A stretch of DNA of 64,000 nucleotides, taken from Dioscorea cayenensis subsp. rotundata (taxonomy: Eukaryota > Streptophyta > Magnoliopsida > Dioscoreales > Dioscoreaceae). Position 1 is the first letter of the stretch. Each line of letters starts with the position of its first letter. The stretch is from positions 23,225,868 to 23,289,867 of the forward strand of contig NC_052488.1 of assembly GCF_009730915.1 (NCBI RefSeq), given 5' to 3'. The notes under the pieces were generated by a model. That model was given only the letters and a program-made list of their open reading frames with translations. It ran no database searches and was not told the DNA's origin. Position numbers and translations under genes: made by a program. Shown piece after piece: positions 1,811 through 47,280 of the stretch.

Positions 1811-2141
1811 TGGGCTCAAGTTGAAGCATTTTTATTGATTTTCATAAGTCATATAAAACAGAGAATTTAAAGGCAGACAAGGGTGGGAAACTGGGAATTG
1901 GGAAAGGCTACCGTGTGGGAGTGACTCTATCCTGAAATAGGAGTGAGTAATGGCTTTTCTTTCATTTATAAGACTGTGTGCCACACCGCCTCAGCCATAC
2001 TTGTTGTACAGCACAACCACATTAATGACACACCCTAATCAACCCCAATTCAATTCGATGCCATATTACGCCCACTGCCTACCAAGTTATAGCTGTTTTC
2101 ATCACACATCCACTGATCCACACACACACATATATATTTAA

Positions 2142-2163
2142 ATATATATATATATATATATAT
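2142..2163. repeat. (TA)n microsatellite
   Basis: A TA dinucleotide tract follows a short CA tract. The mirror tract in copy B lies at about 46926-46952 and has a different length, so it is a length-variable marker between the two copies. Confidence 0.85.
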
Positions 2164-3706
2164 CTATGGTGTATAAGCAGAGTACTACTGAATGGTGGAG
2201 CGTGGAATGTATCACTGATGCCAAACAATACAATTTTAAACTAAGTGCTTCAGGTAAGTTACCCAGAGAATTCAGTGATGGGGTCCTGATTTTTTTGTTT
2301 AGTTTTTAGTACAGCTATGTTTCTTCTCATTGATCTTAGTTTCTTCTCATTGATTTTACTCTTGCTTGCAAAAAAATATATGCTGCAGCGGCCAGTACTG
2401 TGTGCATGCGTTAATCTACAAACCAATTTATTTAGCATTGCTTCTACTAATTAAGGCTTCTATGAATTGGGTGACCCTTGCTGCTTCAGTTCATGTTTTA
2501 ACTTAAGAAAGCCATAATACATCATGTTATTTAAGAAGCATTTTTTTTGCAAGTATCTTTATCAATTTGTGGGGAGAGAGTCAGGTGCAATGCAAATTAG
2601 TTTAGTCTGCCAAAATTAGTTTTCTATTTCAAGTCCCAAATGTCATGAAGGCGTGATTTTCAGCTTTCCAGTTTCCAGTGGTGTGTGATGAATGATGATT
2701 GATTCTGGTTTGTTGTGCTTGTGCCATGCAAAGGAGTTTTCTCAAGGTATTTATTGACCATGGGCACCATAAATACTCAATGCCTAGGATTGCTCAACAA
2801 GCCTTGAGTATCCTTTTCATTTTATTTATTATCTCTCTTGTCATAATGTGTTTAATCATAAACAGCAACATCAACAACAACGACAACAACAATAAGCTGC
2901 AGACTTGATAAAACATATATACCTCAGCTTGTCCCTTATGTTAAAAAATATTAGAGAATAATTCTCTATTATTGTTAAATACTCTTTCCATGAAATTAAA
3001 TATTCTAATTATGACAATATATATTTTTCTCATATAATAAATATTTTAAATCTCTATAAATTAGGATTGAAATAATTTTTTTTTTCATTTTTAGATTATT
3101 TAATCCATGTATAAAAATATTACATTTATGTATTTTATTTAATAAATGAAAACACTAACATTTTAAGAACCCCTCTATTAGCTTTTGTTGAATAGCTCAA
3201 CACTCATTATATCTCTTATTGGCATATCTTACCTCTACACTTCTCAATAAAATGATGTTTCCCAACAAAAAATTTGTCACATTACTAGAACTGGCCTCAT
3301 CCTTCTTGTCCGTGCCTCTTTCTAAATACTTTTAGTTTGAAGCTTTTTCCTCTGTTGTTGTGTACCTCATCAATCTTTTTCCCACTCTCATCCTCCAACA
3401 TATATAAATCACATCATGAGCTTGTTCTTCTTACAAAACCCAATTTTGATCATTTTCATGTTTTTGATATCCACTATTTTTTTGTTAGTTACGTGATAAA
3501 CTCATCACTGTTCTGTCCGTCTTAGGAGAAACTAATAAAAAAAATATTTATGAATAATTATTATTAATTTTTTTTTTGTTTTTTTATTTTTTTTTATAAA
3601 AATGGATGAATCACTAATATAGACCTCCAGGCACACCATTCAATCATTGAAAACATAAGCATTTTACATACACCGCTATTAGCTTTCTTTCAGGCCCACA
3701 TGCACC
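2164..3706. other. NPF8 upstream region, copy A
   Basis: No gene was recognised. The region is AT-rich and collinear with 45393-46925 in copy B. A poly-T and TGGATGAATCACTAAT-like stretch at about 3570-3625 resembles the 3' tail of the local LINE family on the opposite strand and may be an old 5'-truncated copy. The sequence just before the start codon (TTTCTTTCAG at about 3684-3693) looks like a splice acceptor, so the 5' UTR of the transporter may be spliced. Confidence 0.4.
3401..3409 (+). promoter_or_regulatory. Candidate TATA box for NPF8 copy A
   Basis: TATATAAAT lies about 300 bp upstream of the start codon. It would fit a transcript with an untranslated leader, possibly spliced at the acceptor-like site near 3693. 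The equivalent site in copy B is shortened by four bases and no longer reads TATATAAA. The assignment rests only on the motif. Confidence 0.3.
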
Positions 3707-4239
3707 ATGGAAGAACTTGAAGGTAAGTACACCAAAGATGGAACAACAGATATCTCAGGGAAGGCTGCTATCAAGAAGAATACGGGGAACTGGAGGGCTT
3801 GCCCTTATATACTAGGTATAATTTATTGATTTATTTTCGATTATAGTTTGTCAAGTTTCTTCTCCTTAAATTAATATCATCACAAGTTTATTTAACAAAC
3901 ATCATGTGAATTATACAAAGCCTTTCAATGCTTTTTCCACAGCAAATGAATGTTGTGAAAGATTGGCATACTATGGCATGAGCACCAATTTGGTGAACTA
4001 CATGAAAGACCGGCTCCACATGGCGAATACCACAGCAGCAAATAATGTGACCTATTGGTCAGGAACATGCTACATAATGCCTCTCCTCGGCGCTTTTGTT
4101 GCCGATGCCTACTGGGGAAGATACAGGACCATTGCCACCTTCATGATTATCTACATATTTGTAAGAATTCATGCAGTACTATATATTAATATATACTGTC
4201 ATAATTATATTCTTCAAATATATTAATTGTTGTACATGC

Positions 4240-4270
<31 letters not shown>

Positions 4271-4859
4271 TTTACTATATGTTTTGTACGCATGCAGGGT
4301 TTGGCGCTGTTATCAATGACAACATGCATAAATGGGCTAAAGCCATCTTCGTGTAATGGTGGTGATGTCTGCCACCCAAAACAGGTGCAGAGCGCCGTTG
4401 TGTTCGTAGCTCTTTACCTGATTGCATTAGGGACCGGAGGCATCAAACCGTGCGTCTCTTCCTTTGGTGCGGATCAGTTTGATGAATCTGATCAAAGTGA
4501 GAAGAAGAGCAAGAGCTCCTTCTTCAACTGGTTCTATTTCACCATAAATATTGGTGCTCTTATTGCCTCCTCGGTGCTGGTATGGATCCAGATGAATGTG
4601 GGCTGGGGATGGGGGTTTGGTATCCCAGCAATAGTAATGGCCATTGCAGTTATCAGCTTCTTTTCAGGGACTCGGTTATACAGGCATCAAATGCCCGGAG
4701 GAAGCCCGCTCACTCGTATGGCCCAAGTTATTGTATCTGCAATCAGGAAAACTCATGTTGAGGTGCCTGCTGACAAATCTCTTCTTCATGAGATCAATGA
4801 TAATGGATCTGCTATACAAGGCAGTCCCAAGCTAGAGCATACTGATGAGTTCAGGTTAG

Positions 4860-4891
<32 letters not shown>

Positions 4892-5855
4892 CTAATACTA
4901 GACTTGAAATTATAATTTGATTTTTTTACTAGTACTGGATTCTTTTCTAGCCTTTTCTATAACATATTAACATGCATATCTGTCCCCGCTGCAAGCAAGG
5001 TGCCTAGACAAAGCGGCTGTGGTGACACAAAGGGACCAAAGCAAGGGTGGTAGGGTCAGCCCGTGGAGACTCTGCACTGTGACTCAAGTAGAGGAACTCA
5101 AAAGTGTAGTGCGTCTTCTACCGATATGGGCCACGGGCATCATTTTCTCAACTGTTTATAGCCAGATGAGCACCATGTTCGTCCTCCAGGGCAACACTCT
5201 GGATCCACATATGGGTCCCAGTTTCAAGATTCCCTCAGCTTCACTCTCCCTCTTTGATACCGTCAGTGTCATCTTTTGGGTGCCGGTGTATGATAAAATC
5301 ATAGTCCCCCTGGCACGCAGGTTTACAGGTCGTGAGAGAGGATTCACGCAGCTAACCAGGATGGGGATTGGCCTGGTGATCTCTGTTTTCTCCATGCTTG
5401 CGGCTGGGATCCTGGAGTTTGTCAGGCTACGCATTGTGGCGAGGGATAAGTTATATGATTCCAAGGACTATGTCTCAATGACCATACTGTGGCAAATTCC
5501 TCAGTATTTCATAGTTGGGGCAGCCGAGGTGTTCACTTTCGTTGGGCAGTTGGAGTTCTTTTATGACCAGGCACCAGATGCCATGAGGAGCATGTGTTCA
5601 GCTCTGTCTCTTACCACCAATGCACTGGGCAATTACTTGAGCTCACTTCTTGTTACCCTAGTGATTGCCATCACAACCATGAACGGGCGCCTTGGGTGGA
5701 TCCCTGACAATCTCAACCGTGGACATCTTGACTACTTCTACTGGCTTCTGGCCATCCTCAGCCTTGTCAACTTTGGGGTGTATCTTCTCATTGCCAAGTG
5801 GTACACCTATAAGAAGACGGTCCAGACCTCACTACCACACGAGGCAGCCCCATGA
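3707..5855 (+). CDS. NPF8: NPF8-type proton-coupled peptide/nitrate transporter (NRT1/PTR family), copy A, intact
   Basis: Four exons (3707-3815, 3943-4160, 4298-4854, 5000-5855), all with GT-AG introns and consistent phases, sum to 1740 nt and encode 579 residues, normal for this family. Recognisable landmarks are the ExxER proton-coupling motif ([10 protein letters not shown]) at the start of exon 2, DAYWGRY, the segment [65 protein letters not shown], and near the end [14 protein letters not shown] and [16 protein letters not shown]. These match plant PTR1/PTR5-like members, which are 12-span membrane proteins importing di- and tripeptides with protons at the plasma membrane or tonoplast. 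The start is chosen because the protein begins MEELEGKY followed by [10 protein letters not shown], as in the family. The substrate is inferred from subfamily only. The neighbouring PHT4 gene is convergent. An intact reading frame here contrasts with the frameshifted copy B. Confidence 0.95.
4240..4271. repeat. (TA)n microsatellite in NPF8 intron 2
   Basis: A TA tract sits between exons 2 and 3. A second tract at about 4858-4887 starts immediately after the intron 3 donor. Both differ in length from their mirror tracts in copy B (about 44838-44860 and 44229-44246). Confidence 0.8.
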
Positions 5856-6021
5856 TGATATCACATTTAGTATTTACAATAGAGAAAACACACGCTGTTA
5901 TCCCTATGAACAAGCAAGCAACATTGGAAATTTACATTGGCTGCACATGCTGGGCAAGAGAATATGTTGACTTGATCTTATTTCTGCCCTGTTTTATGTA
6001 TTTGGTTGTTGGAACTTATTT

Positions 6022-6092
6022 TTTTTTTTTTTGAATAAAGTGGATAAACCACTAATTTATTAAAAAGAAGAAAACAGAGGAGTACAGTAGAA
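6022..6092 (-). mobile_element. Very short 5'-truncated LINE tail, private to copy A
   Basis: A 71-bp insertion is flanked by a 16-bp direct repeat (6006-6021 and 6093-6108, beginning TTGTTGGAAC). On the minus strand it reads as a LINE 3' end: GTGGTTTATCCACTTTATTC followed by a run of A. Copy B has the uninterrupted site with one copy of the repeat (about 36399-36415). Target-primed reverse transcription with severe 5' truncation explains the structure. The tail matches the ends of the larger LINE copies in this window. Confidence 0.85.
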
Positions 6093-6285
6093 TTGTTGGA
6101 ACTTATTTGATTCATTGATCATGCCCGAAATTCATTAAACAAAAAAGCGTGCAGCTTGAACAGCTCACCCCAATTTAGATGTTGGTAATATAAAATTTAC
6201 AATAATATATATATATATATAGATATATATGACTATATGACAATTATAATACCTGGGAATGGCAAAGAATGTTTACAAAAAAAGA

Positions 6286-9200
6286 TTAATAGAAAACTTG
6301 CTCCCCGGTGGCAAAGAGATTCCAGAAGATGGTGGTGATGAAGTAGAGGGCTGAGGTGAGTGTCAGGAAGGCCTGAAAGGAGCCCAACCACTGCACGAAG
6401 TAGCCGGTTCCTATGGTGCTGATTATTGCAGCAAGTGTACCAACAGAGTTTGTAATCCCTACCAAGGAGAGGATGCGATTAGTTAGCCAACAATAAATAT
6501 GAACATCAAACTATTTAATAGCATCAAACAGGTAATGGTAAGTTCTAACATACCATGAAGGAATCCTGCATACCGCGGTGCAATATCCTGGTAAAAACAA
6601 AGGGGGTAAAGTTTGAACATCATAATAACAAAACTAACAGAACGAATTATGTTGTATTGTGACATTTCAACTCTAACATGAGGGTCATGTTCACATCATA
6701 AAGGATAAAGAAATGGCAAACTTCTCAAGATCGAGAATAAGTAATGTACATAAAGTAGAAATGGTAGACATAATATTTACCTGCATGTTGAGCAGGAAGC
6801 CAGCCTGGCTGAAAGAGCTGAAGCTCAACGCAACAGTCATTAAAAACGCTGCTGCATTGGGAGTTTGAGCGTATTTCAAGCACAACAATGCCAGTGCGGG
6901 CCCAATGAAACCAATTGACTGTCACATTCATACACCGGGATCAAAAATAATGTCAGTTAACTATTTACATTCAACCCAATAATGAGCAACATAAATATGG
7001 TCCTGCTCTTCAAGACCCAACAACTAGAAAAGCTTTATTCAAACAGTTTATAATTTTCAATGCGAAATATCTTGGCAGAGTAACTTTCGAATAAGTGAAT
7101 AAACCACCTTGTTATTAGCTTAAAAAAAATTACCTGCATGATTTTGCGAACTCTAGTTACAGGATAGCCAGAAGCAATTAGAGAATCAGAGGCGGCTCCA
7201 GCTATGTAACCTGATATGGCCATCATACCCCAAGGCACAGCACTAAACCATGCGGCTTGTTTAAGATTCACATTATATACCTATAACAGCAAGAAACGAT
7301 TGAGCATTATGTTGAAAGACAAAAGTAGTGCACTTTTCAAGTGGAGTATTGATGCTTACAGTCTTGAAGTACACAGGCATCCATGAAAGAAGCACAAAGT
7401 AGCCCTGCATCCAAGTTTAATTAATATCAAAATTTCAGTTATAAAAGTTTAAGTTGTTCTTTTTCATAAATATCAACCTAACTCTAGCACACAAACTTGC
7501 AACCAAAGTTTTATAACTATGGCATGTCTGCAAAATGTTCACTCAAGAGCAGCACAAAACAGAATGACGTAGTTATCGATAAGGAAAGCCTTTTATAAGA
7601 AAAGCGTAACTGAGTGACTTATTATCCAAATTTAGAAGGATAAGAAAAGCGTTTTTGTTGATAAATTGAACTCACCCAGTTGTTGGTAACATTGGCAAAG
7701 ATGATAGCCCATGTAGGCAGCTTGGACAGCAAATGGCGAAGAGGTGGAAATTTGGAGCCGCTGGAAGAAGAGACATCTGTCTTCCCAGCTCGGATCAATT
7801 GCAACTCATAAGTGCTGATCAGAGGACTGTCTCCAGGATCATTTGTGACCCCATTTACCCAGAGAGATAGCCACATAAACCCAAGTGACGCAAACAGAGA
7901 AAATGCCCCAGCAAGTCCAATGCTTGACATTATGACAGGTGTTGCCAAGAAACTTATAACATTTCCTAGGTGAAACCCAGCCATTGATAGGCCCACCGCG
8001 CTTGCTCGTTCATGGCAAGGAAACCAACTGTATGTTGACAATCAAAAATCCAAAAATTGTCATCATTCGGATGTTATGAACAAAGTGGCCATTTAACAAG
8101 GAGTTGAATTGTTAGCACATGAACTTTACCGGGATAAGAGTGTGTTCATGGAAGGCAAGGCAACACCTTCGGCAAGGCCAAACAGAGCACGGACTGCCAG
8201 AAGCATCGCGGTGGAGTGGTCAGCAGCCCATGGAGTGAGGAAAGTGGCAAGGGACCAGAGAGCCACCCCCCATGCCATCACTCTCTTCCCGCCGTATCTG
8301 TCTGCCAGAGCTCCACCAGCGACAGATGAGAACAGATATCCCCACAGAAACGAAGACTGCAGCCATGAAAACTCAATAACATTTACTTAGCCCGCGTCAA
8401 TGCTAAAATACAACTGATATCTCGTTACCAATTTAACTGTTATCATTCTACTTGAAATAAAATTATATGTATTAAAAAAAAATCGCTATTCGCCATCCAG
8501 GTTGGGACCCATTTTGATTGGAATGCCAAAAAAATCAAAATCAAAGAAAAACACAATATGCTCATTTTTTTTAATTAAGTATTCATTGAATAGGGTGGTA
8601 TCACACTGTTGAGCGTACAATTACGCATCAAAACAAATAAAGTGGTCTACGTAGGAAAGACAGCGAAAGAGGAGTAGGTGAATTGCCTCCAAAGCATATA
8701 TTAGTTGTCTTTTTGGTGCAGATGGGTTAGGTATGCATCTCCTCTTAAATCAACATACCCACCATTCATGATTTGGACAACAAATTTAAATAAAATAAAA
8801 TAAACAAAGAAGAAATGATTACTCATAAAACAAAAGACGATCGAATTACTAGCGGATTTTCTTATAAATTAAATAAAAAGAGAAAATTATGCCATTTATG
8901 AAAACACGGCCATTAGTGGTGGTTGAACAATATGAACAAGAATAAGAATAATAAACAGTAATTAACAATTAACCAATTGATATTTAGTGGTGGCATACTG
9001 GCATGAGAGGTGGAAAAGGAGCTGACCTGGACGATCCCCAGGAAGGAGCTGGACCAGCCATATTTGGCGGCGAGGGGGACCACGGCGACGGACATGACGA
9101 CGCGATCGGCATTGCAGAGGCACATCACCAAGGACACCAAAGCCACCACCTTTGCTCTCTCCGGGATCCGGATTGCTTCTTCTTCCCTACCGATCCCTCC

Positions 9201-9563
9201 CGCCCCTGCACCGCATATCACAACTCTCGCCGCCTTTTCACGCCTCCTTTTCTCCTCTACTCTCTCACCTAATACAAACCCAAAGCCACCGTTGCCGTTG
9301 CATGCGCTACTGCCACTGCTAGTACTGCTACTGGAACAAGTTCCACCTTGATTCTTCCACGGCACTCTGTCACAAATTCTGCTGATGATCCGAAGCCTAG
9401 ATCCTCCATGACGAGAATTTGAGGACCCGATCGAACCATTCGATATATTATAAGGAGAAGAGATCCAAGAAGAAGAAGAAGAAGAAAAAGAAGAAGGACG
9501 TGAACAATGAGAAGAATGGGAAGGGAGAACGGATTTCGCTGGCGTGGGTGACACCACCTCCAT
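6286..9563 (-). CDS. PHT4;5: Plastid PHT4-type anion/phosphate transporter (PHT4;5-like), copy A, intact
   Basis: Eight exons on the minus strand: 9027-9563, 8130-8356, 7676-8027, 7360-7404, 7134-7280, 6781-6918, 6554-6587 and 6286-6458. GT-AG borders and phases agree, and the total is 1653 nt or 550 residues. The first roughly 120 residues are Ser-rich with basic residues and few acidic ones, as in chloroplast transit peptides. The major-facilitator core follows: CNADRVVMSVAVVPLA, SSFLWGYLFSSVAGGALADRYGGKRVMAWGVALWS, GLAEGVALPSMNTLLSRWFP, FANVTNNWGYFVLLSWMPVYF, NLKQAAWFSAVPW, RKIMQSIGFIGP, and NMQDIAPRYAGFLHG. These are typical of the SLC17-related PHT4 family, which moves phosphate, ascorbate or other anions across plastid membranes; PHT4;5 is the closest match from memory. 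The substrate is not determinable here. The protein ends ATGEQVFY. Confidence 0.93.
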
Positions 9564-9718
9564 CGGTTGAGATGGGAGATCAACTCGCAGAAATGATATA
9601 TATATATATATATATAGAAAGAGTTTTATTGGATACAAATATATGTCTGACGGAGAGGGACGGGAGGTTGTTGGTTTGGTTGCGGGGGTTTGGTGGGGTC
9701 AAAGAAGCAGAAAAAAGT

Positions 9719-9728
9719 CTATAGATAG
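9719..9728 (-). promoter_or_regulatory. Candidate TATA box for PHT4 copy A
   Basis: On the minus strand CTATCTATAG lies about 156 bp upstream of the start codon. It is conserved at 32724-32733 in copy B. The leader between it and the start contains a TA microsatellite (about 9596-9616) whose length differs between copies. Motif evidence only. Confidence 0.35.
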
Positions 9729-10583
9729 GCAGGGTTGGTGGCGAAGGAGCAAAAGCCTCACGACTCATTTGGACGTCTTTAGATAAGTTTTTAGGGAGAT
9801 TTGAGTGCCAATATCCGCTGCGAGAGATCCCAACGACGACACCCATGACCCAACCAACCCTCGCATAGTCGCATGTCAATGACGCCACGTTGCTTTTACT
9901 TCTGCTGCCAGATGGATCCCACCAGAGCGCGATGACCGAGTGTTCGGTGTGTGTAAACTGTGAAGAGTGAAGACTCCTCAACAACAACACTGCTGATGTA
10001 ACACCAACGTGGCATGGGACCTTTAAGCCACTATTCTTAACTCTATAATAATAATTAAGCAATGCTTTCTGTGACTGTGCCTCGGCAAATCATCCATGAA
10101 TCTCCAGCGTGCTCGTGTGTAGCTCGTGACATAAACAAACCATTGTATTCCCTATCTTTGTTTGCTAATTGCTACCGAGGGCGAGGGGTTCATCTCTCTT
10201 TTGTTCACGATTTACACAAATTAGCAGGCAAGACTCACGTGGTAGCGGCTCAATCCTCGAGTCAGATCAGCAAACATTGTTGTTTTCCTACTAATTATTC
10301 TCGTCACGAAATTATGCCTCATCCCATCCCATCCCATCCTATCCTATCTCTTTGTTCACGTTCAATTTCCTTCCAAAAAACTATCATCTGCATTTCATAT
10401 TATTTCCAGCGGTCTCATTTTACTGTTCTATCCCATCACTTCCCTGTTAATCCCAAACCCAATCAAGTACAAGTGTACAACCAACAAACCAATTTTCATT
10501 TATTTTCCTCTGTTTACTGGCAGCCAAGTCATAAATCTTATTTTATTTTAAAAAATAAATAAACCATATTAACAAAATATAAT
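9729..10583. other. PHT4 upstream region, copy A
   Basis: A less AT-rich promoter-like stretch contains several ACGT-type cores (for example CACGTTG near 9888 and CACGTGG near 10238). Reading frames through it are not protein-like. It is collinear with 31878-32723 in copy B, where the frames break differently, which supports it being non-coding. Confidence 0.45.
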
Positions 10584-10594
10584 TTGACAACCAT

Positions 10595-11703
10595 GCAGAG
10601 TTTTTTTCTTTTGGTCAGTGGTTCTGAAAGGTTTACTTGCTTTTAGAAGCTGTGTCACGGTTAGTGTTAACCCTGGCACGGAAACTTTGTTCTGGAAGGA
10701 CCGCTGGCTCAACGGTCGTGCACCCATGCATCTTTGGCCGGATGAGTTTTTAGCTTCGTCAATGCAGAACGCTTCGGTTGCTGACTTGATGCATCTTCTT
10801 GATTGTCAGCCGTTTGCAAATGATCTTGAGATCTCAACGCTCATTCTGATTCGGGCTCCTTCCTCTGTTCCTGCTAGGGATTTGAGATCATGGAGTCTGA
10901 CTACAAATGCTTCCTTCATAGTCAAATCCTTCTACGACCGACTCAATGATGGCGGGCTCCGTTGTTCGAGTGCAAAATTCTTTTGGAAAGGGCCTTGCCC
11001 TAGGAAAGTCAATATCTTCAACTGGTTGGCGTGGAAGAAAAAAATCTTTACACTTGTAAATCTGGCCAAGCGTAGATGTAACAGGCTCCCGACTGACACG
11101 TGTGTGCTCTGTCACGCAGCGTCGGAATCGGAGGACCATCTATTTCTTCAATGTCGGTTTGCTACTGAGGTGTGGGCGAAGTTAAATGAGGCTTGTCAAC
11201 TACCGGCACTTCCTTGCTCGATGTCAATTCTTTGGGAGGGCTGGAGATCTGCACTGTGTCCTGCTTCGCGGATGCTTGGGGTCTGGGTGATCAAAGCTTT
11301 TGTGTAGTCCATTTGGCTTGCGAGAAATGATGTTATTTTTGTTGATAAATGTGTGAATCCGCTTGGTGTCTTTCTGAAGACTGACCAACTCATTCTATCT
11401 TGGTACTCTGTAGCTCCGGACGGATTGAGATCGACACTTGACGATTCCATCTCCTCCATTCGGCGCAGCTTAGAGTTCACTAGACCTCAATCTGAGGTGG
11501 CAGAGGCTGCTTTGACGACAGAGGAGGTTATGGATGTTACCGTGGGGTAGAGCTTTGTTTCTTTGTGGGTCAGGAGGAGACCCGTCGTTCCTCCCATTTT
11601 GTTGTGCTCTTTTATGGCTCCACATCTAGTGGGCTTCTATTGTATCTATTCTACTTTTATTTATGAATGTGGTATATCCACTTTTTCAAAAAAAAAAAAA
11701 AAA
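10595..11703 (+). mobile_element. 5'-truncated L1-type LINE, shared by both arms
   Basis: The insertion is flanked by an 11-bp target duplication, TTGACAACCAT (10584-10594 and 11704-11714), and ends in a run of A. It holds the 3' end of a LINE ORF2, including a zinc-binding reverse-transcriptase C-terminal domain with the series FFWKGPCPRKVNIFNWLAW, CVLCHAASESEDHLFLQC and FATEVW, ending ISSIRRSLEF and VMDVTVG. The frame is interrupted by a stop at about 11307. The mirror copy at 30758-31866 has the same boundaries, so this insertion predates the split of the two copies. Confidence 0.9.
10618..11550 (+). pseudogene. LINE ORF2 C-terminal fragment (zf-RVT domain)
   Basis: The frame open at 10618-11307 contains the LINE zinc-binding domain seen downstream of plant reverse transcriptases, with Cys and His ligands in CVLCHAASESEDHLFLQC. 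A stop after AFV separates it from the last segment at 11353-11550. No reverse transcriptase or endonuclease core is present because of 5' truncation, so the fragment cannot mobilise itself. Confidence 0.85.
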
Positions 11704-11714
11704 TTGACAACCAT

Positions 11715-13756
11715 TAGATAACTATGAGTGATGGGTGAATGACAATACTGTATAAATATATTATAAAAAATACTACATAAGCACAATAAACTCACGGTTT
11801 ACCAGATCCCCTATAAGAACTAAGAAGAACTGAATTCTTCATCCCTCCAGAATTGTAAAATTATTTTTGAAATTGTGGTCATCGATATATCATCTCGACG
11901 CATACAGTAAGTCTTTTATTACCCCCATGTTAACCTGCTCAACATGTAAATCCCTAAGAGATCGTTAAGTCCACCGCACTTTATCTCAGATCTTTGACAT
12001 CCCTTTGTAGGGAGACGCTTTGTCGCCATTTGTCAATATATATATAATTAATTAATAATAATTGTAATCAACAGCAAAAAGAAATACAAATTAATGTTAA
12101 ACTCTGATGGATATTAACCAATGTAATGAACATCTAAACTACCTGCAGCAAAAACCACCGGTTCGAGAGGAGCGCAAGTACAATTCTGTTCTAGGCTGTG
12201 TGAACTATAGATCAACAAGAATCATAGCTTCACTTCAAATGCAATCCATTTGGAGCAATTGGTGGCAATAAGCTGATATATTCAAAACAACATATGGCGA
12301 CCAAATTTTCTTCTACCTAGGGAACACGACAAAGACAGCCAAAACTTCAATAAAATTGCTTCATATGTAGTATTCAATAAAGAACCAAGACCTTCAAGGA
12401 AGAAAAAGACAGTGAGATGCTGAATGAGTAAAACTGATGACCGAGGAACCACATCAGTTCCCAGATCATAGAGATTTCCTACTGATCTTCCCTATTGCAG
12501 TGCGCCTATCTAATGTAAAATGGTCAGAGCCGAAAACTGTTATGATCCCAATACGATCTCCGAAAGATTAACAGGATGAGAAAATTTTCTCTAATGATGA
12601 AGATTTAGGGGAAGGAAATTAAATAATTACAAAATGGCAAAAATAATTATGTACTCTAAAAATAACTTGCTATCCAGCGAAAGCAGTGTTACAAATGCCT
12701 GCAGGCACTCATGTGATTCTGAACAATTAATTAGGACACCAGAAAGCAGCCAAACTTCCAAGAGTAAATCAAGTTGGATAAAGAGAACAGTCTATACACT
12801 ATAAATCAATAATCTTAATATAGAACCAATTCTTAAAAGAGAAGGCATTATGTAGCGCTAATATAACGTAGATGTAGGAACAAGCTTAACATGAAGTACC
12901 TCCAGATAAGCTGAGTAACAAGTAAAAGAAATTAGATAAATAATCAGACATGTTTGAAGACTCACTAATACAAAGTATTGTTAAAAGAACTAAAGCAAAT
13001 GACGACTAAAAGTCCAGCCAAAGATAAAGGAGGAACTTTAGCTACGTACACTGTTGAGAAAAGCAATCCATTGACCAAGAAAGAATGTGTCTCCAGGGGT
13101 GAAAAATTATTCAAGGGATACCAGAAACCAAGTAATGATTAAGTTGATAAGCTTTACATCAATGACAGAATTTTGAATATGGAAAAGAATAAAGCACAGA
13201 GAAACAGAAAGTAATCAGGTGATCAACATAATGTACATGCCCGAAATGTATGAAATCAAATAAGCTAACTAGAATGCAACAAATTTTGAATATAAAAAAT
13301 TCAATTAGTGTAGTAATATGATATATTGTGTTAAAATACAGGCATCTGCACAAGCAAAACCAAAATTCATTGCATGGAACATGCCAACTAGATTGATTTT
13401 CATATTTATGAATAAACAGAAGCATGCTAGAAACAGCTCATCTTTCAAGGGATAAAGATATTAAAATTTGCAGGACAACGCACTAACTTAACAAGTAGAA
13501 AATAGAATAGAGAATCAGTTTAGAAAATAATATCATTAAAAAAATAATAGCATGTGGCTCATGTTCTGAAGTGCCCATGCTTGATATCAGCAACAAGAGT
13601 TCTCACACTGGTGGTGGGCTAATAAGTAAAAAATGGCCATTGACCATAGGGACATATCCCCTAATATTAAGCTAAAAAAAATTGCATTAAAAAATAGAAC
13701 AAGTGGGGGTTCTCGATGTTTTCATTCCAATCTATACTATGATTTCATAGCACTCG

Positions 13757-13794
<38 letters not shown>

Positions 13795-15658: not shown

Positions 15659-15697
<39 letters not shown>

Positions 15698-32832: not shown

Positions 32833-32872
<40 letters not shown>

Positions 32873-36226: not shown

Positions 36227-36547
36227 ACATTCTTTTGCCATTCCCAGGTATTATAATTGTCATATAGTCATATATATCTATATATATATATATATTATTG
36301 TAAATTTTATATTACCAACATCTAAATTGGGGTGAGCTGTTCAAGCTGCACGCTTTTTTTTTTTTTGTTTAATGAATTTCGGGCATGATCAATGAATCAA
36401 ATAAGTTCCAACAACCAAATACATAAAACGGGGCAGAAATAAGATCAAGTCAACATATTCTCTTGCCCAGCATGTGCAGCCAATGTAAATTTCCAATGTT
36501 GCTTGCTTGTTCATAGGGATAACAGCGTGTGTTTTCTCTATTGTAAA

Positions 36548-36889
36548 TCAAAGACTCCACCCAAAGAGAATATCACACTCTCCAAAAAACACAAAATGAA
36601 AATATTATTTTTTAAAGAGAAAATGCATAGACACACGTTCATTTCAAGCACTTACATACTATTAAAAGAAACAAAACAGATAAAAACAAAAACTCCAAGT
36701 GTTCACAGCAACCTACACGTTGCTTTATCAGATAAAATAAAGCATGCTTACCCTCTCCACTCATAACTACTTTGACTGACTCAAAATTCAAAATTATTCA
36801 ACTTAAATTCTAACCAAACTAACAAGGCTTGAGTCCATCTTTAGCTACTCTTCAATTCAGACTTGAGTTGCTAGCTTCTCCAGCCTTCA
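36548..36889 (-). repeat. 3' LTR of Copia-2
   Basis: Compared by eye with 42900-43243 it shows about six substitutions and one 2-bp indel in roughly 342 bp, which indicates a recent insertion. On the minus strand it starts TGAAGGC and ends CTTTGA, an atypical 3' end for an LTR (usually CA). Confidence 0.93.
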
Positions 36890-38386
36890 ATCTCCTCCTT
36901 GGACTCAAGCTGTCCATTCCAAGCCTCATTCTGAGTATCTCAAATTTGAATTTACTCAAAGGCTTAGTGTATATATCAGCTAATTGCTCTTCAGAACAGC
37001 AAAACACCACTTTAATTTCTTTATTCTCTTCAAAGTAACGAACAACATGGTATTTAACTTTGATGTGCTTGGTCTTACTATGAAAAACTGAATTCTTTGC
37101 TATCGAAATAGCTGCACAATTATCACATAGGATAAGAGTAGCTTCAGATATATCAAAGCCAAGATCAGCCATCAGTTTTCTTAGCCAAACATCCTGTTTC
37201 ACTGCTTCAGATACCCCAATATACTCAGCTTCAGCCGTTGATTGAGCTACTGGACCTTGCTTTTTTGAGTTCCAAGTGATCACTCCAGTCCCAATAGTAA
37301 AGCAATTTCCAGAAATACTCTTCATTTCTTCATCATTTCCAGCCCAATCACTGTCCGAAAAACCAATAAGATTTACTGAATTTGTTCTACCATAGTATAT
37401 GCCATAATCAACTGTTCCTTTAATGTATCGAAGAACTCTCTTTGCTGCTTGAAAATGCCTCTCTGTTGGATTTTGCATGAATCGAGACAAGTAATTCACA
37501 GAGAACACAATATCAGGTCTTGTGCTGCAGAGATATAATAGACTCCCAATCAAGCTTCTATACATTCTCCCATTTACTTGAGGTGTACCATCCTCCTTGA
37601 AGAGTTTTTCTCCAACTGAAAATGGTGTACTGACTGGCTTGCTATTTCCCATACAGAATTTGGATAAGAGTTCTTCTGCATACTTCTTTTGATGTAAAAA
37701 TATTCCAGTCTCCATTTGCTTCACCTCCATTCCCAAGAAGAATGACATCCTCCCAAGATCACTCATCTCAAAAGTTGTCTTCATGCTCTCTTTAAACTCT
37801 TCAACCTTTGATTCTTTGCTGCCTATTAATAAAATATCATCCACATACACTGAAACAACTAATAAGTCTTCACATTCACTTCTTTTCACATACAATGTTG
37901 CTTCAGTTTCACTTCTCATGAACCCAATGTTCAATAGATGAGAGTTCAATCTGCTATACCAGGCTCTGGGAGCCTGTTTTAAGCCATAGAGTGCCTTCTG
38001 AAGTTTGTAGACCTTTGTTTCTTCACCTGGCTTCTCAAAACCTTCTGGTTGATGAATATAGAGGTCTTCATTTAGATACCCATTGAGGAAGGCTGATTTT
38101 ACATCCAATTGATAAACATACCAACCTTTGTGAGCAGTGATAGCCAACACCAATCTGATAGTATCTAGCCTTGCCACAGGTGCGAAGGTATCAAAGAAAT
38201 CCACTCCAACTTCCCCGTGAATAGCCCCTTCACAACTAGCCTTGCTTTTGTGCTTGTTTTACAGTCCCATCTCGCATTCAATTTTAATTTGAAAACCCAT
38301 TTGACACCTAACACCTTCTTTCCAACTGGTCGTGTCACTAGTATCCATGTATCACTTTTCTCAATCATTTTAAGCTCCTCCTCCAT
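36852..38386 (-). pseudogene. Copia-2 reverse transcriptase and RNase H
   Basis: A 450-residue frame (38204-36852) carries FDTFAPVARLDTIRLVLA, QLDVKSAFLNGYL, LYGLKQAPRAWYSRL, the catalytic YVDDIL, SLIGSLLYLCSTRPDI and, for RNase H, GFSDSDWAG, STAEAEYIG and LCDNCAAISIAKN, ending ADIYTKPLSKFKFE. The start of the domain (KVLGVKWVFKLKLN, KARLVVKG) lies in another frame at 38386-38165, so a frameshift near 38200 separates them. The active-site Asp pair is retained. Confidence 0.93.
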
Positions 38387-38545
38387 TGCATTTCTCCATG
38401 CATCTCGATTTTTAAAGCTTCAAAAACAATTTTCGGGGTTCCAATGATGCCAAGTTACAACGAGCATATATGTCTTCCAAACTTCTAAAAACCTCTAGAT
38501 GACACCTCATCATTATTATCTTCTCCAATTTCTTCTTCAAGCTCT

Positions 38546-39448
38546 TCATCTTGAACATTTTTGGACACCTTGCATATGCATTGGATGTTCAACAAACTGA
38601 TGTTCAGCTTCAACTGTCATTGTATTATCATTTTCCCAGTTCCATACTTGATCTTCATCAATTCTCACATCTCTGCTAACTATGATTTTATAAGAGAATA
38701 CATTGTAGATTCTATAGCCCTTGGTCACTGAGCTATAGCCTACCAGAATACCCATCTCTGCTCTTTTATCAAGCTTCTTTCTCCTCTCCTGTGGAACATG
38801 AATGTAACACACACTACCAAAGATTCTGAGATGATTTACCTTTGGTTTGTAGCTTGTCCAAGCTTCATAAGGTGTAAGATTGTTTAGTGCCTTGGTACTT
38901 AACCGGTTCTGCAAATAGACAGCAGTATTCACTGCTTCAGCCCAGAAAAACTTTGGCATTTTCTTCTCAAAGAGCAAGCATCTTGACATGTTCAACACTG
39001 ATCTGTTCTTCCTCTCACTCACACCATTTTGTTGAGGTGAGTATGGAGCTGAGAGCTGATGTAGGATGCCATTCAACTGCAAAAACTCCTGAAATTGGTT
39101 TGATAAGAACTCAGCACCATTATCTGATCTCAAGGTTTTGATCTTGAGATCAGATTCATTCTCAGCCAATGCTTTTAATTCCGTAAACTTCTGAAAAGCT
39201 TCAGACTTTAGCCTCATAAAATGCACCCATGTGAACCTGCTAAAATCATCAATGAATAGAATGAAATACTTACTTCCATTCAATGATTCAATGTGCATAG
39301 GTCCACATATATCAGTGTGAACCAACTCAAGCTTCTTTGTTGCTCTTCTAATTGGTTGCGCAGGGAAAGGAAGTCTATGTGATTTCCCTTCTTCACATAC
39401 AGTGCATGAGCCTCTTCTTGTGTTCATGTTTGGCATGTTGATCACCAT
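38546..39448 (-). pseudogene. Copia-2 integrase
   Basis: A 300-residue frame with the integrase catalytic core: CTVCEEGKSHRLPF (end of the HHCC zinc finger), ELVHTDICGPM, LRSDNGAEFLS and YSPQQNGVSERKNRS, giving the D, D and E catalytic residues. The first zinc-finger part (LWHRRYGH) lies just upstream in another frame or behind an in-frame stop and adjoins the nested solo LTR at about 39512. Confidence 0.92.
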
Positions 39449-39512
39449 CTAAGTGTCTTTCATCAGCTTAAGAGTATCAAGACTACAATGGCCATACCTC
39501 CTATGCCACAGC

Positions 39513-41448
39513 TGTAATGTTTGTAAAAATTTCTTTTTCTTCATCTTTGACTGGGTTGACTAGGTGTTTGGTGAGTGGGCCCCAATGTTTGTTTCATTGC
39601 CTTAATTTCCGGATCTTGCCTGATTGTGGATTATTGGTTTTTCCTGTTTTTGATTAGTGGAGGCTTTTAATTGAGTTTATGGGTTGCTTTTATAGGCTTA
39701 GTTGTGCAACCAATCTTCTTGCTCTCCAAACTCTCTTACCCTTAAAACAACTCAACCTTGGCCGAATTTTGGTGTCATTTTCTTTTCTCTTTATGCTTGG
39801 TTTTTGAGTGGAACTTGTCACCAACAAGCTTAGAGGTAAGCTTGTTATTTTCTTCAGAATTCTGAATTTTTTATTGTCTTGTTTTATTTGTTTTGTTAGT
39901 GCCAAACATGTATGTTTATCTCTTGTGTTGTTGGTTCTTGAATCTTGGGTATGTTTGTTCATATCTTATAGCTTGGTGTTAAGCTTAATCCTTATCTTGT
40001 TAAAACTTTGTTTAAATATTTTTAGCATGTAAATCTGAGAATTTAGTTGAGCATGTTTTTTTTCATGTCATGGAGTGTTTTTATTCGGTTGTTAAGTGGA
40101 GTGGTAATTAAGCAACTAGAGTATTGTTTCTTGGTTTTCTTTGTGAATATATACATATATATATAATCATGCCTTAACGAGGTTCTTGACTGAAAATTTC
40201 TGAATTTTAGTAACCTGAAAATCATGCTATTATGATTTATTTTTGTGGTTATTATTTGTTTGGTTGGGTTTTGGAATTTTAAATTATAGATTTAAAGAAA
40301 CTTATATATTCAGATTCATGAGTTAAGTTTGATTTTAATCTTGGAAAGTTAATTGGGCTGGTGTTATGTTTAAAGCTTTCTTGGAGCATTTTATTTGCCT
40401 AGCTAATTTCCTTGTGTAAACCTTTAATAGCTATGAACTCTTTTATTTGTTGTATTAGCTTGGGCTATAGTTGTAATTTAGGCCCGGCCCAAGTTTTGTA
40501 ACCTAAGTTAGATTATTCTGTCTGGGTAGATCTATACCGAGCTGTAGTTCGCGGGACTTGGTGAACCCAACTCTATAGCTCGGAGCCAGGTAGGCTCTCG
40601 CACTGTGTATTCCGTATTTCTGGCAATAATTATTATTTAATTATTGCATTGTTTAATAATTTTATTTATTTATTTATTTGAGTGGTATTTATGGTTATTT
40701 ATTTATTTTCTTATTTGTATTATTTATTCAGTAATTCCTCTGTCTGTATTCCGTAGTTTCTGTTGTTTTTAGTACATCTCCATTTCTGGCTCGCCCAGCT
40801 AGGAGGAGTAAGTCCTAGCCATGTGCATATGTTTTTCCGTAGTAGCGCTTACCCCCGATCATGCGCTGAAGATCCGGCTACTGACTGATATTCTATTCTG
40901 CTCGTCCGACTTCATAGTCAAGATCCACCTGTCGCTCGTTGATTGCGTATTAGCCATGGAGATGTATTTCGCTGCTTTTCGTGTTTTTGGATTATTCCCA
41001 AGATTCTCGCGTATTTTCACGTGATCTCCGTATGAAGCATGAGCTATTATTCCGCAATATCCGCTATATGTTGATTTCCCGCGATCCCATCGGGCCCTTG
41101 TGGCTCATGCACTCGCGATCCCATCAGAAAGTGTCGAAAAGTCGATTGTCCTGCGCTATCGATATCTTGTTATTACCTTCTTGAGAGTGTAAGACTTGTA
41201 TTCCGATCGTATTTTGTAATTCTGTGAACCTGGGTTGTATTTATATTCCTCAGAGGGTCTGCTAAAGTCCGTACTTGCAGTATTTCGGGCTTCCAAAGAT
41301 CCCATTTGTGCTTTTGTGTTCTGCTCATATCCGCTGTTAGGGGCTGACTCGACCGCTTTTTAGCTGAGGCCTTGCACCCAGTGGGGTCCAGTCCCATTGG
41401 ATGCGGCCGATCTGTCCGCGGTCCCGGCTGTGGGGCTGGGACGTGACA
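39513..41448. mobile_element. Nested solo LTR (or short non-autonomous LTR element)
   Basis: A 1936-bp insert begins TGTAATGT and ends GTGACA, i.e. TG...CA ends on both strands, with a perfect 5-bp target duplication ACAGC (39508-39512, 41449-41453). Joining the flanks restores the Copia integrase motif LLWHRRYGH, which confirms the borders. No coding domains are inside. On the minus strand it begins TGTCACGTCCCAGCC, similar to LTRs of plant Ty3/Gypsy elements. Size and lack of an internal domain suggest LTR-LTR recombination. Confidence 0.88.
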
Positions 41449-41459
41449 ACAGCAAGGTT

Positions 41460-42003
41460 TCATCCATGCTTCCATACAGACTTATCCTTCCAATTTAAAG
41501 GAAAACTATGGCTTGACATCTCAACTTCCATTAGTTTTCCACCTTCTTTATCAAAAACTTCACACAGTTTATCATGAAAATTAAATGATAAACCAGCTTC
41601 AAGTAATTGGCCTACACTTACCAAATTTTGGGAGATTTCAGGTACAAAAAACACATTGAGTATTTGCTTTTTACCTCCTGGTGTGTTGTGTGTTGATGAG
41701 AACAACACCTCTCCCCTCCACAGCAACATAGCTTCCATTGCCTATCTTCACTTTAGATTTGTAGCTTCGATCCAATTCCTTGAAACTCTCAAGATCTCCA
41801 CACATGTGATGAGTGCACCCACAATCCAGCAACCAGCTTCTCTTGCATTCACTTCCAGAATTTTCCTTCTCAAAGGCCATAAACATCATCTCTTCATCAC
41901 GTTCCACTTCTTCAGCCACCTGAGCTTTTGGTTGTTGTTGATCAGTCTTGCACACCTTCTCAATATGACCAAATTGCTTACATTTCCTACATTGGACACT
42001 TGG
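41460..42003 (-). pseudogene. Copia-2 zinc knuckle and protease region
   Basis: Two frames (41955-41671 and 41738-41460) cover the protease. The usual aspartic motif D-S/T-G appears as SWLLDCGCTHHM, with Cys in the second place. Downstream VPEISQNLVSVGQLLEAG is the normal Copia pre-integrase segment. Upstream, CRKCKQFGHIEKVC (about 41961-42003) is a CCHC knuckle. A stop between the frames near 41700 and the nested insert at 41448 break the polyprotein. Confidence 0.88.
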
Positions 42004-42069
42004 TCTAAACCAACAGAAATTTTGAGAGTGATTTGTTTGTTTGCAATGTGGACAAGGAGGAAATTCCCT

Positions 42070-42870
42070 TCACTTCTTCACATAGGTATTGCTTTGACTC
42101 CCATCATGCACATTTAGCTTCTTTGTAGTCCCTGTAAACTTCCCAACTGCCTTTTTGAATGTTTTCTTCTGAAACTTAGTCTTCTCAGCAGCCACCAATG
42201 CGGTCTCACCTTGCTTTCCTCTAAACTCCTTCTCATCTTTTCTCATGTTTTGTCTTTGCTCCATAGCTTGAAAAGAACTCACCAATTCACCAACGCTCAT
42301 CACTGTAAGGTCTTTGGAATCTTCTAAGGATGCAATTTTATGCTCAAGCCTCTCAGGCAAGCTAACTAGTACCTTCTCCACTACTCTTTGGTCTGTGAGC
42401 TCCTCTCCAAGTAGACGAACCCGGTTAACGACATTCATTACTCTGTCAGCAAACTCCCTGACAGTTTCTCCATCCTTCATCCGCAACATTTCAAACTCTC
42501 TTCTCAAGTTGAGAACTTGAACTCTTCTGGCCTTCAAGTCACCCTCATACTCCTCCTTGAGTTTGAGCCATGCTTGTTTGGCTGTATCACAAGTCATAAG
42601 TCTTGTAAACTTCTCTTCACTCACTGCTGAATGAATTACAGTGAGAGCCTTGTACTTCTTGGTTGTAGCTTCAACATGACTCTTCTTCTGTGCAGCTGTT
42701 GGGTGCTCTAGAAGAATATCAACATCATCATCCTTCTCTATAGCATCCCACAGGTCATATGCTTTCAAGTATGCCTTCATCTTCACCTCCCAAGCTGAAT
42801 AGTTTTGACCACTAAACACCGGATCCTTAGATACAAAACTTGATGAGTCTCCCATTTCCACAGCCTCCAA
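42070..42870 (-). CDS. Copia-2 gag (UBN2 type)
   Basis: A 266-residue frame starts MEAVEMGDSSSFVSKDPVFS and contains the gag head FSGQNYSAWEVKMKAYLKAY and the UBN2 core with AWLKLKEEYEGD, FEMLRMKDGETVREF and VLVSLPERLEHKI. It starts 15 bases inside the primer-binding site in minus-strand order. Gag assembles the particle in which reverse transcription takes place. A stop after NTYVKK precedes the zinc knuckles, so the element has lost the gag-pol connection. Confidence 0.9.
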   Translation of the reverse strand: MEAVEMGDSSSFVSKDPVFSGQNYSAWEVKMKAYLKAYDLWDAIEKDDDVDILLEHPTAAQKKSHVEATTKKYKALTVIHSAVSEEKFTRLMTCDTAKQAWLKLKEEYEGDLKARRVQVLNLRREFEMLRMKDGETVREFADRVMNVVNRVRLLGEELTDQRVVEKVLVSLPERLEHKIASLEDSKDLTVMSVGELVSSFQAMEQRQNMRKDEKEFRGKQGETALVAAEKTKFQKKTFKKAVGKFTGTTKKLNVHDGSQSNTYVKK

Positions 42871-42899
42871 AGATCAATGCTTAAAGCTCTGATGCCAAT

Positions 42900-43243
42900 T
42901 CAAAGACTCCACCCAAAGAGAATATCACACACTCTCCAAAAAACACAAAATGAAAATATTATTTTTTAAAGAGAAAATGCATAGACACACGTTCATTTCA
43001 AGCACTTACATACTATTAAAAGAAACAAAACAGATAAAAACAAAAACTCCAAGGGTTCACAACAACCTACACGTTGCTTTATCAGAGAAAATAAAGCATG
43101 CTTACCCTCGCCACTCATAACTACTTTGACTGACTCAAAATTCAAAATTATTCAACTTAAATTCCAACCAAACTAACAAGGCTTGAGTCCATCTTTAGCT
43201 ACTCTTCAATTCAGACTTGAGTTGCTAGCTTCTCCAGCCTTCA
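42900..43243 (-). repeat. 5' LTR of Copia-2
   Basis: Partner of 36548-36889. Its outer edge (43243) is 22 bases from the NPF8 stop codon of copy B, with the target duplication between. Confidence 0.93.
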
Positions 43244-43265
43244 GTAAATACTAAATGTGATACCA

Positions 43266-45392
43266 TCATGGGGCTGCCTCGTGTGGTAGTGAGGTCTGGA
43301 CCGTCTTCTTATAGGTGTACCACTTGGCAATGAGAAGATACACCCCAAAGTTGACAAGGCTGAGGATGGCCAGAAGCCAGTAGAAGTAGTCAAGATGGCC
43401 ACGGTTGAGATTGTCGGGGATCCACCCAAGGCGCCCGTTCATGGTTGTGATGGCAGTCACTAGGGTAACAAGAAGTGAGCTCAAGTAATTGCCCAGTGCA
43501 TTAGTGGTAAGAGACAGAGCTGAACACATGCTCCTCATGGCATCTGGTGCCTGGTCATAAAAGAACTCCAACTGCCCAACGAAAGTGAACACCTCGGCTG
43601 CTCCAACTATAAAATACTGAGGAATTTGCCACAGTATGGTCATTGAGACATAGTCCTTGGAATCATATAACTTATCCCTCCCCACAATGCGTAGCCTGAC
43701 AACCTCCAGGATCCCAGCCGCAAGCATGGAGAAAACAGAGATCACCAGGCCAATCCCCATCCTGGTTAGCTGCGTGAATCCTCTCTCACGACCTGTAAAC
43801 CTGCGTGCCAGGGGGACTATGATTTTATCATACACCGGCACCCAAAAGATGACACTGACGGTATCAAAGAGGGAGAGTGAAGCTGAGGGAATCTTGAAAC
43901 TGGGACCCATATGTGGATCCAGAGTGTTGCCCTGGAGGACGAACATGGTGCTCATCTGGCTATAAACAGTTGAGAAAATGATGCCCGTGGCCCATATCGG
44001 TAGAAGACGCACTACACTTTTGAGTTCCTCTACTTGAGTCACAGTGCAGAGTCTCCACGGGCTGACCCTACCACCCTTGCTTTGGTCCCTTTGTGTCACC
44101 ACAGCCGCTTTGTCTAGGCACCTTGCTTGCAGCGGGGATAGATATGCATGTTAATATGTTATAGAAAAGGCTAGAAAAGAATCCAGTACTAGTAAAAAAA
44201 TCAAATTACAATTTCAAGTCTAATATTAGTATATATATACATATACTAACCTGAACTCATCAGTATGCTCTAGCTTGGGACTGCCTTGTATAGCAGATCC
44301 ATTATCATTGATCTCATGAAGAAGAGATTTGTCAGCAGGCACCTCAACATGAGTTTTTCCTGATTGCAGATACAATAACTTGGGCCATACGAGTGAGCGG
44401 GCTTCCTCCGGGCATTTGATGCCTGTATAACTGAGTCCCTGAAAAGAAGCTGATAACTGCAATGGCCATTACTATTGCTGGGATACCAAACCCCCATCCC
44501 CAGCCCACATTCATCTGGATCCATACCAGCACCGAGGAGGCAATAAGAGCACCAATATTTATGGTGAAATAGAACCAGTTGAAGAAGGAGCTCTTGCTCT
44601 TCTTCTCACTTTGATCAGATTCATCAAACTGATCCGCACCAAAGGAAGAGACGCACGGTTTGATGCCTCCGGTCCCTAATGCAATCAGGTAAAGAGCTAC
44701 GAACACAACGGCGCTCTGCACCTGTTTTGGGTGGCAGACATCACGACCATTACACGAAGATGGCTTTAGCCCATTTATGCATGTTGTCATTGATAACAGC
44801 GCCAAACCCTGCATGCGTACAAAACATATAGTAAAATATATATATATATATATATATAGCACGTACAACAATTAATATATTTGAAGAATATAATTATGAC
44901 AGTATATATTAATATATAGTACTTCATGAATTCTTACAAATATGTAGATAATCATGAAGGTGGCAATGGTCCTGTATCTTCCCCAGTAGGCATCGGCAAC
45001 AAAAGCGCCGAGGAGAGGCATTATGTAGCATGTTCCTGACCAATAGGTCACATTATTTGCTGCTGTGGTATTCGCCATGTGGAGCCGGTCTTTCATGTAG
45101 TTCACCAAATTGGTGCTCATGCCATAGTATGCCAATCTTTCACAACATTCATTTGCTGTGGAAAAAGCATTGAAAGGCTTTTGTATAATTCACATGATGT
45201 TTGTTAAATAAACTTGTGATGATATTAATTTAAGGAGAAGAAACTTGACAAACTATAATCGAAAATAAATCAATAAATTATACCTAGTATATAAGGGCAA
45301 GCCCTCCAGTTCCCCGTATTCTTCTTGATAGCAGGCTTCCCTGAGATATCTGTTGTTCCATCTTTGGTGTACTTACCTTCAAGTTCTTCCAT
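43266..45392 (-). pseudogene. NPF8: NPF8-type transporter, copy B, frameshifted in exon 3
   Basis: Mirror exons are 45284-45392, 44938-45155, 44251-44808 and 43266-44121. Lengths equal copy A except exon 3, which is 558 nt instead of 557 because an A run has five instead of four bases (T run at 44354-44358 on this strand). The frame then ends after [11 protein letters not shown], before the second half of the protein, which stays open as a separate 278-residue frame. Substitutions against copy A include Ala to Pro near residue 21, Gly to Arg in NGRDVCHP, Arg to Gln in GTQLY, Phe to Val in LEVVRL, Ala to Gly in IVGRDK and Ile to Thr in LVTAITT. The motifs [17 protein letters not shown] and [14 protein letters not shown] remain. 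A single homopolymer base is also the commonest long-read error. Confidence 0.9.
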
Positions 45393-46925
45393 GGTGCATG
45401 TGGGCCTGAAAGAAATTAAAGGCAATAGCGGTGTATGTAAAATGCTTATGTTTTCAATGATTGAATGGTGTGCCTGGAGGTCTATATTAGTGATTCATCC
45501 ATTTTATAAAAAAAATAAAAAAACAAAAAAATTTAATAATAATTATTCATAAATATTTTTTTTATTAGTTTCTCCTCAAGACGGACAGAACAGTGATGAG
45601 TTTATCACGTAACTAACAAAAAAATAGTGGATATCAAAAACATGAAAATGATCAAAATTGGGTTTTGTAAGAAGAAGAAGCTCATGATGTGATTTATGTT
45701 GGAGGATGAGAGTGGGAAGAAGATTCATGAGGTACACAACAGAGGAAAAAGCTTCAAACTAAAAGTATTTAGAAATAGGCACGGACAAGAAGGATGAGGC
45801 CAATTTTAGTAATGTGACAAATTTTTTGTTGGGTAACATCATTTTATTGAGTAGTGTAGAGGTAAGATATGCCAATAAGAGATATAATGAGTGTTGAGCT
45901 ATTCAACAAAAGCTAATAGAGGGGTTCTTAAAATGTTAGTGTTTTCATTTATTAAATAAAATACATAAATGTAATATTTTTATACATGGATTAAATAATC
46001 TAAAAATGAAAAAAAAAATAAAAAATATTTCAATCCTAATTTATAAAGATTTAAAATATTTATTATATGAGAAAATTATATATTGTCATAATTAGAATCT
46101 TTAATTTCATGGAAAGAGTATTTAACAATAATAGAGAATTATTCTCTAATATTTTTTAACATAAGGGACAAGCTGAGGTATATATGTTTTATCAAGTCTG
46201 CAGCTTATTGTTGTTGTCGTTGTTGTTGATGTTGCTGTTTATGATTAAACACATTATGACAAGAGAGATAATAAATAAAATGAAAAGGATACTCAAGGCT
46301 TGTAGAGCAATCCTAGGCATTGAGTATTTATGGTGCCCATGGTCAATAAATACCTTGAGAAAACTCCTTTGCATGGCACAAGCACAACAAACCAGAATCA
46401 ATCATCACACACCACTGGAAACTGGAAAGCTGAAAATCACGCCTTCATGACATTTGGGACTTGAAATAGAAAACTAATTTTGGGAGACTAAACTAATTTG
46501 CATTGCACCTGACTCTCTCCCCACCAATTGATAAAGATACTTGCAAAAAAAATGCTTCTTAAATAACATGATGTATTATGGCTTTCTTAAGTTAAAACAT
46601 GAACTGAAGCAGCAAGGGTCACCCAATTCATAGAAGCCTTAATTAGAAGCAATGCTAAATAAATTGGTTTGTAGATTAACGCATGCACACAGTACTGGCC
46701 GCTGCAGCATATATTTTTTTGCAAGCAAGAGTAAAATCAATGAGAAGAAACTAAGATCAATGAGAAGAAACATAGCTGTACTAAAAACTAAACAAAAAAA
46801 TCAGGACCCATCACTGAATTCTCTGCGTAACTTACCTGAAGCACTTAGTTTAAAATTGTATTGTTTGGCATCAGTGATACATTCCACGCTCCACCATTCA
46901 GTAGTACTCTGCTTATACACCATAG
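45393..46925. other. NPF8 upstream region, copy B
   Basis: Mirror of 2164-3706. No gene was recognised. The TATA-like site of copy A is shortened here (near 45691-45700). A (TA)n tract at about 46926-46952 closes the region. Confidence 0.4.
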
Positions 46926-47280
46926 ATATATATATATATATATATATATATTATTATATATGTGTGTGTGTGGATCAGTGGATGTGTGATGAAAACAGCT
47001 ATAACTTGGTAGGCTGGGCGTAATATGGCATCGAATTGAATTGGGGTTGATTAGGGTGTGTCATTAATGTGGTTGTGCTGTACAACAAGTATGGCTGAGG
47101 CGGTGTGGCACACAGTCTTATAAATATGAAAGAAAAGCCATTACTCACTCCTATTTCAGGATAGAGTCACTCCCACACGGTAGCCTTTTCCAATTCCCAG
47201 TTTCCCACCCTTGTCTGCCTTTAAATTCTCTGTTTTATATGACTTATGAAAATCAATAAAAATGCTTCAACTTGAGCCCA

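Follow-up and report, generated by a model that had tools for sequence, protein, structure and literature searches.

The stretch of DNA analysed here, 64,000 nt long (C18:23225868-23289867; hereafter the window, in which negative positions denote upstream DNA), contains a large inverted repeat with transporter genes in both arms, and the question it raises is whether the second arm is a true inverted duplication or a contig of the other haplotype that was placed beside the first. Most likely, the inverted repeat is an assembly artefact and of low biological interest. The parts of three reports on false duplication available to us (PMC8081667, PMC9516828, PMC7203741) describe separate haplotype contigs that were wrongly placed in a primary assembly; the marks reported are haploid-level depth and, in two of them (PMC9516828, PMC8081667), a gap separating the copies and a raised number of erroneous k-mers. 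Genome-wide searches were run on the whole assembly (584,211,761 bases, 2,249 sequences).

Scaffold layout and collinearity of the two copies

The 324 kb surrounding the window consist of nine contigs (the outer two cut by the stretch) and eight gaps, each of exactly 1000 N. The parts that fall in or reach into the window are:

1..16324, plus strand: contig A (c5), first copy of the locus, starting at window -1422 (C18:23224445)
16325..17324, unstranded: scaffold gap between A and B, exactly 1000 N
17325..47530, minus strand: contig B (c6), second copy of the locus, inverted, most likely the other haplotype
47531..48530, unstranded: scaffold gap on the far side of contig B, exactly 1000 N
48531..64000 and on to window 79614, minus strand: contig C (c7), inverted copy of the right end of contig c0

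With the 1,422 bases upstream of the window, contig A measures 17,747 bp. The earlier note had placed contig B between two gaps of exactly 1000 N (16325-17324 and 47531-48530) and had described the repeat as collinear in reverse complement, and both descriptions hold. Five blocks, the first beginning at 1809/47282 and the last ending at 15975/17327, are collinear between A and reverse-complemented B and amount to about 13.3 kb per side:

A 1809-5877 and B 47282-43244, inverted: 97.4% identity
A 5872-6021 and B 36548-36399, inverted: 99.3% identity
A 6093-14852 and B 36414-27612, inverted: 96.9% identity
A 14844-14969 and B 25932-25807, inverted: 94.5% identity
A 15788-15975 and B 17526-17327, inverted: 82.8% identity, microsatellite-rich

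A chance match is excluded by E-values of 0.0 in the two main blocks. The homology edge previously set at 1811/47280 was not borne out, B 47529-47277 matching window -1420 to -1168 at 85.5%. This upstream match sits beyond one insert that is private to A:

-1167 to 1808, unstranded: A-private insert of 2,976 bases, with matching inverted ends GGGGGCGTTTGGTT / AACCAAACGCCCCC

The insert is transposon-like, and its right part makes up window 1..1808. The edge at 1809/47282 is thus where this insert ends in A, not a duplication breakpoint, so the junction tests that had been proposed at 1811 and 47280 would be misleading.

Discrete inserts apart, the alignment of B to A stops no more than 1-2 bases short of either end of B, and B has no sequence outside the homology with A. 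Its left end (17327) corresponds to A 15975, and A extends 349 bases further. At the right end of B, about 195 bases (window 47334-47527) are a genome-wide repeat: 38 of the 40 matches listed, from 40 of 81 candidates that were scored, lie almost wholly in these last bases of B, and in several cases the repeat occurs in pairs about 5 kb apart, which suggests that they may be LTRs. Of the right-end stretch, only about 57 bases (47277-47333) are found in A and B alone. It seems that A and B both break within one repeat that they share, where a real duplication could also break, which makes the coinciding ends (window -1422 and 47530) weaker evidence than at first sight; the idea that they prove an assembly-graph bubble by themselves has lost weight on account of this repeat.

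For contigs c1-c4, no mirror partner was seen within the 324 kb around the window. Contigs c1 and c3 have about 10 kb in common in direct orientation (84%), likely a repeat. Rfam (gathering threshold) and tRNA scans gave no matches.

Transporter genes and divergence between A and B

Two genes per arm had been reported; the count is right, and both B copies are frame-broken. The four copies are:

3707..5855, plus strand: NPF/POT (PTR2) transporter, copy A, intact, 579 aa
43266..45392, minus strand: NPF/POT transporter, copy B, with an extra A in exon 3 and a stop after 263 of 579 aa
6286..9563, minus strand: PHT4/sialin-like MFS transporter, copy A, intact, 550 aa, 8 exons
32909..36214, plus strand: PHT4/sialin-like MFS transporter, copy B, with three single-base indels in exon 2

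The NPF/POT gene of contig A has four exons (3707-3815, 3943-4160, 4298-4854, 5000-5855) and a PTR2 match with an E-value of 1.9e-123, and the nearest solved structure to its last exon is NRT1/PTR family 6.3. The 550-aa MFS protein at 6286..9563, which we take to be a PHT4 member, has an MFS match (E 1.5e-46), and its nearest solved structures are sialin and vesicular glutamate transporters. In its B copy, translation ends after 205 of 550 aa and the region of the stop codon is altered too. With short matches and simple repeats set aside, a 2-kb query from the NPF region found A, B (96%) and then only matches of 77% over at most 570 bases in the whole assembly. The suspicion that gene number may be overstated by two here is supported: there is probably one NPF/POT and one PHT4/sialin-like gene, and the extra copies are probably not real.

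Between A and B, divergence is about 0.7% in coding sequence (25 of 3,391 aligned bases in the two genes) and about 1.5% in most non-coding sequence (127 of 8,537 bases outside coding sequence and outside A 11060-12000). The two long A/B stretches (12,859 aligned bases) contain 249 mismatches, 97 of them within A 11000-11999; the dense cluster at A 11060-12000 lies mostly in a LINE remnant with a 239-aa open frame in A. By a column-by-column count, synonymous sites differ at 1.4% (11 of 801) and non-synonymous sites at 0.54% (14 of 2,586), with some of these 14 differences in indel-shifted stretches, and the ratio is 0.39. Divergence and ratio fit what is expected for alleles or for very young paralogues.

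Of the 43 one- or two-base indels in the two long stretches, 29 are extra bases in B and 14 are extra bases in A; 15 of the 43 are inside homopolymer runs of four or more. In a comparison over longer stretches, mismatches and gap openings between A and B number 126/73 and 39/23.

A second inverted contig pair and the Hs1pro-1 copies

Contig C repeats the arrangement. Positions 51024-77380 of c0 correspond to c7 31084-4768 in inverted orientation (26,955 aligned columns, 92.8%), which places the c0 partner at window -188976 to -162620, that is 163-189 kb upstream. The homology ends at the last base of both contigs (distance 0 to each right end), and the first 4.77 kb of c7 are absent from c0. 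There are 707 mismatches and 888 gap openings between c0 and c7, and the differences are dominated by one-base indels, unlike those of a direct duplication inside c0, where mismatches and gap openings number 93/14 and 224/62. This tandem duplication (c0 1046-12680, C18:22986913-22998547; about 4.3 kb, 94% and 86%) is contained in one contig and apparently real, and it gives the local pattern for a duplication of that kind.

Hs1pro-1 is the recognised gene of this second pair. Its full-length copies at 95% or more number five in the assembly (c0, c7, C660, C2126 and C10), C660 and C2126 being unplaced and C10 being another large sequence, with a copy at 97%:

C18:23051730-23053418: Hs1pro-1 on c0
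C18:23289010-23290705 (window 63143 on): Hs1pro-1 on contig C
63180..63806, plus strand: frame-broken piece of Hs1pro-1 on contig C
C10:606150-607812: Hs1pro-1
C660 and C2126: one Hs1pro-1 copy each

On c0 the gene is one open frame of 564 aa in which both Pfam halves are matched; on contig C it is split, the longest pieces being 208 and 182 aa. Over 1.7 kb of coding sequence, c0 and c7 differ by 6 mismatches and 16 gap openings; the extra bases are in c7 in 12 of these openings and in c0 in 4. All three recognised genes (NPF, PHT4-like and Hs1pro-1) thus have an intact first copy and a second copy broken mostly by one-base indels, and erroneous sequence, judged indirectly through gene frames, appears to be in excess in B and c7 compared with A and c0. 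With so few substitutions, the closely spaced one-base indels in coding sequence resemble errors of a poorly polished consensus more than decay, as far as can be judged from the sequence, and the frame-broken second copies are open to misreading as young pseudogenes. An open frame with no Pfam match spans 341 aa in c0, against no more than 240 aa in c7. Open frames of retrotransposon remnants, some longer in c7 and some in c0, were excluded from the gene count.

Five Hs1pro-1 copies are more than two haplotypes of one locus can supply, so some recent duplication may be real. For a control gene on contig c2 (n=1), the assembly contains one full-length copy plus five partial matches at 89-92%, and redundancy is therefore not everywhere.

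When the first 13,386 bases of c8 were compared with c0, a continuation of the mirror was not found, only weak repeat-like matches of 60-74%. One inverted c8/c0 match near the mirrored position (423 bases, 73.5%) was rejected as continued mirror; it occurs at two places in c0 at 64-74%, with no good matches nearby, and looks like a repeat family. The first 3,386 bases of c8 (C18:23306482-23309867) have two more collinear copies at 83-88%, on unplaced C506 and C304, which is a further sign of redundant contigs.

Origin of the second copies and their private insertions

Very probably, judging from the assembled sequence, A and B are alternative-haplotype contigs that escaped purging, the second having been placed inverted in the scaffold; this would be a heterotype false duplication. 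That B holds what an allelic contig of the same locus would hold, as the earlier note proposed, is strongly favoured, short of proof, because B is contained in the homology with A, the neighbouring contig pair is likewise inverted, and the indels are of consensus type. The plant would then be heterozygous, and the assembler would have put out two contigs for the one locus, A and B, one per haplotype. Contig B would have slipped through redundancy removal, and in scaffolding, strong proximity between alleles combined with a poor orientation signal may have put B beside A, inverted, between fixed-size gaps.

As described in the available parts of the Vertebrate Genomes Project report of 2021 (PMC8081667) and of Ko et al. 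2022 (PMC9516828), heterotype false duplications resemble A and B in having diverged copies with a gap between them, genes counted twice and an excess of sequence errors. They differ in that the second copy here is inverted and that the case is known from the assembly itself. B is also a contained copy of A, like the haplotigs treated by purge_dups (Guan et al. 2020, PMC7203741, in the parts available), and contig C overlaps the end of c0 in the manner of its heterozygous overlaps; unlike haplotigs removed by that program, the contigs here remain in a chromosome-scale scaffold. Gene counts and duplication claims based on the assembly would be inflated here, NPF and PHT4-like appearing twice and Hs1pro-1 twice on the chromosome.

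The foremost alternative, which we consider very unlikely, is that an inverted segmental duplication really took place recently; it would span at least 14-30 kb and might run from c0 to c5, with a near-identical collapsed middle. An inverted segmental duplication or palindrome would likewise have inverted arms with genes and introns in common, synonymous divergence is low, and a large palindrome is expected to have a central gap. Two inverted contig pairs lie in mirror order on one chromosome, an order that a large inverted duplication would also give if its middle had been collapsed. No junction is crossed inside any contig, however, B has no unique outer flank, and the differences between A and B are rich in indels, those in the second copies being of consensus type. 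The homology edges are contig ends, gaps or a transposon border, which would be by chance if the duplication were real; moreover, the mirror is not continued by c8, and a palindrome leaves the second gap at 47531 unexplained. The extended version, a young duplication of about 205 kb per arm carrying NPF, PHT4-like and Hs1pro-1 with the second copies decaying by frameshift, is just as improbable.

It is marginally less likely still that B comes from another real locus, as a homeologous or translocated copy, and was misplaced beside A. Hs1pro-1, present on contig C and c0, is near-identical on C10 and on two unplaced contigs, giving more than two copies, which would suit such an origin; for the NPF region, however, only A and B match at 96% or more, with the next long match at 77%, and B has no flanking sequence that points elsewhere.

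The insertions that distinguish the two copies are discrete, as had been noted, but they do not sit on one side: A has at least three, and B has 16.7 kb of them. Besides the 2,976-base insert they are:

6006..6092, unstranded: A-private small insert of about 71 bp, with poly-T and a 16-bp flanking repeat TTGTTGGAACTTATTT
14970-15787: A-private block of 0.8 kb, opposite an 8.3-kb B block of other sequence
17527..25806, unstranded: B-private 8.3-kb block, containing a copia element
18235-23293: the copia element inside this block, LTRs 94% alike, target-site duplication TTCCT
25933..27611, unstranded: B-private 1.68-kb insert with flanking repeat AATGAATAT (9 bp, up to 14 bp)
36548..43243, minus strand: B-private copia-type LTR retrotransposon of 6.7 kb, 5-bp target-site duplication TTTAC

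The LTRs of the 6.7-kb element (42900-43243 and 36548-36889) are 98% alike, and its empty site is present in A near 5872-5877. From its sequence, the small insert in A would be a LINE/SINE-type retroposition, and the 1.68-kb insert in B is perhaps of LINE type. Dating of the insertions from LTR divergence was dropped, B having consensus-type errors, among them the dense cluster opposite A 11060-12000. The right end of c4 matches a copia element of B at 94%.

Insertions with target duplications, together with about 1% substitutions, indicate that A and B derive from different molecules. A chimeric fold-back (palindromic) read, giving an inverted copy of the same molecule, would produce inverted arms around a gap, and palindromic chimeric sequence is known among false duplications (PMC9516828, in the part available), but its probability is practically nil and we regard it as ruled out, the arms being non-identical with private insertions and target-site duplications on both sides. 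If A and B are allelic, the contig pair provides useful transposon insertion polymorphisms with their empty sites.

Contig C contains repeats of its own. Copia-type retrotransposon remnants with RVT_2 and SH3_retrovirus matches are located at 49151-49729 and 57294-60173. At 51840-53160, in the part of contig C that c0 lacks, two inverted arms of about 450 bp each are 91.7% alike, and they may belong to a transposon with long terminal inverted repeats.
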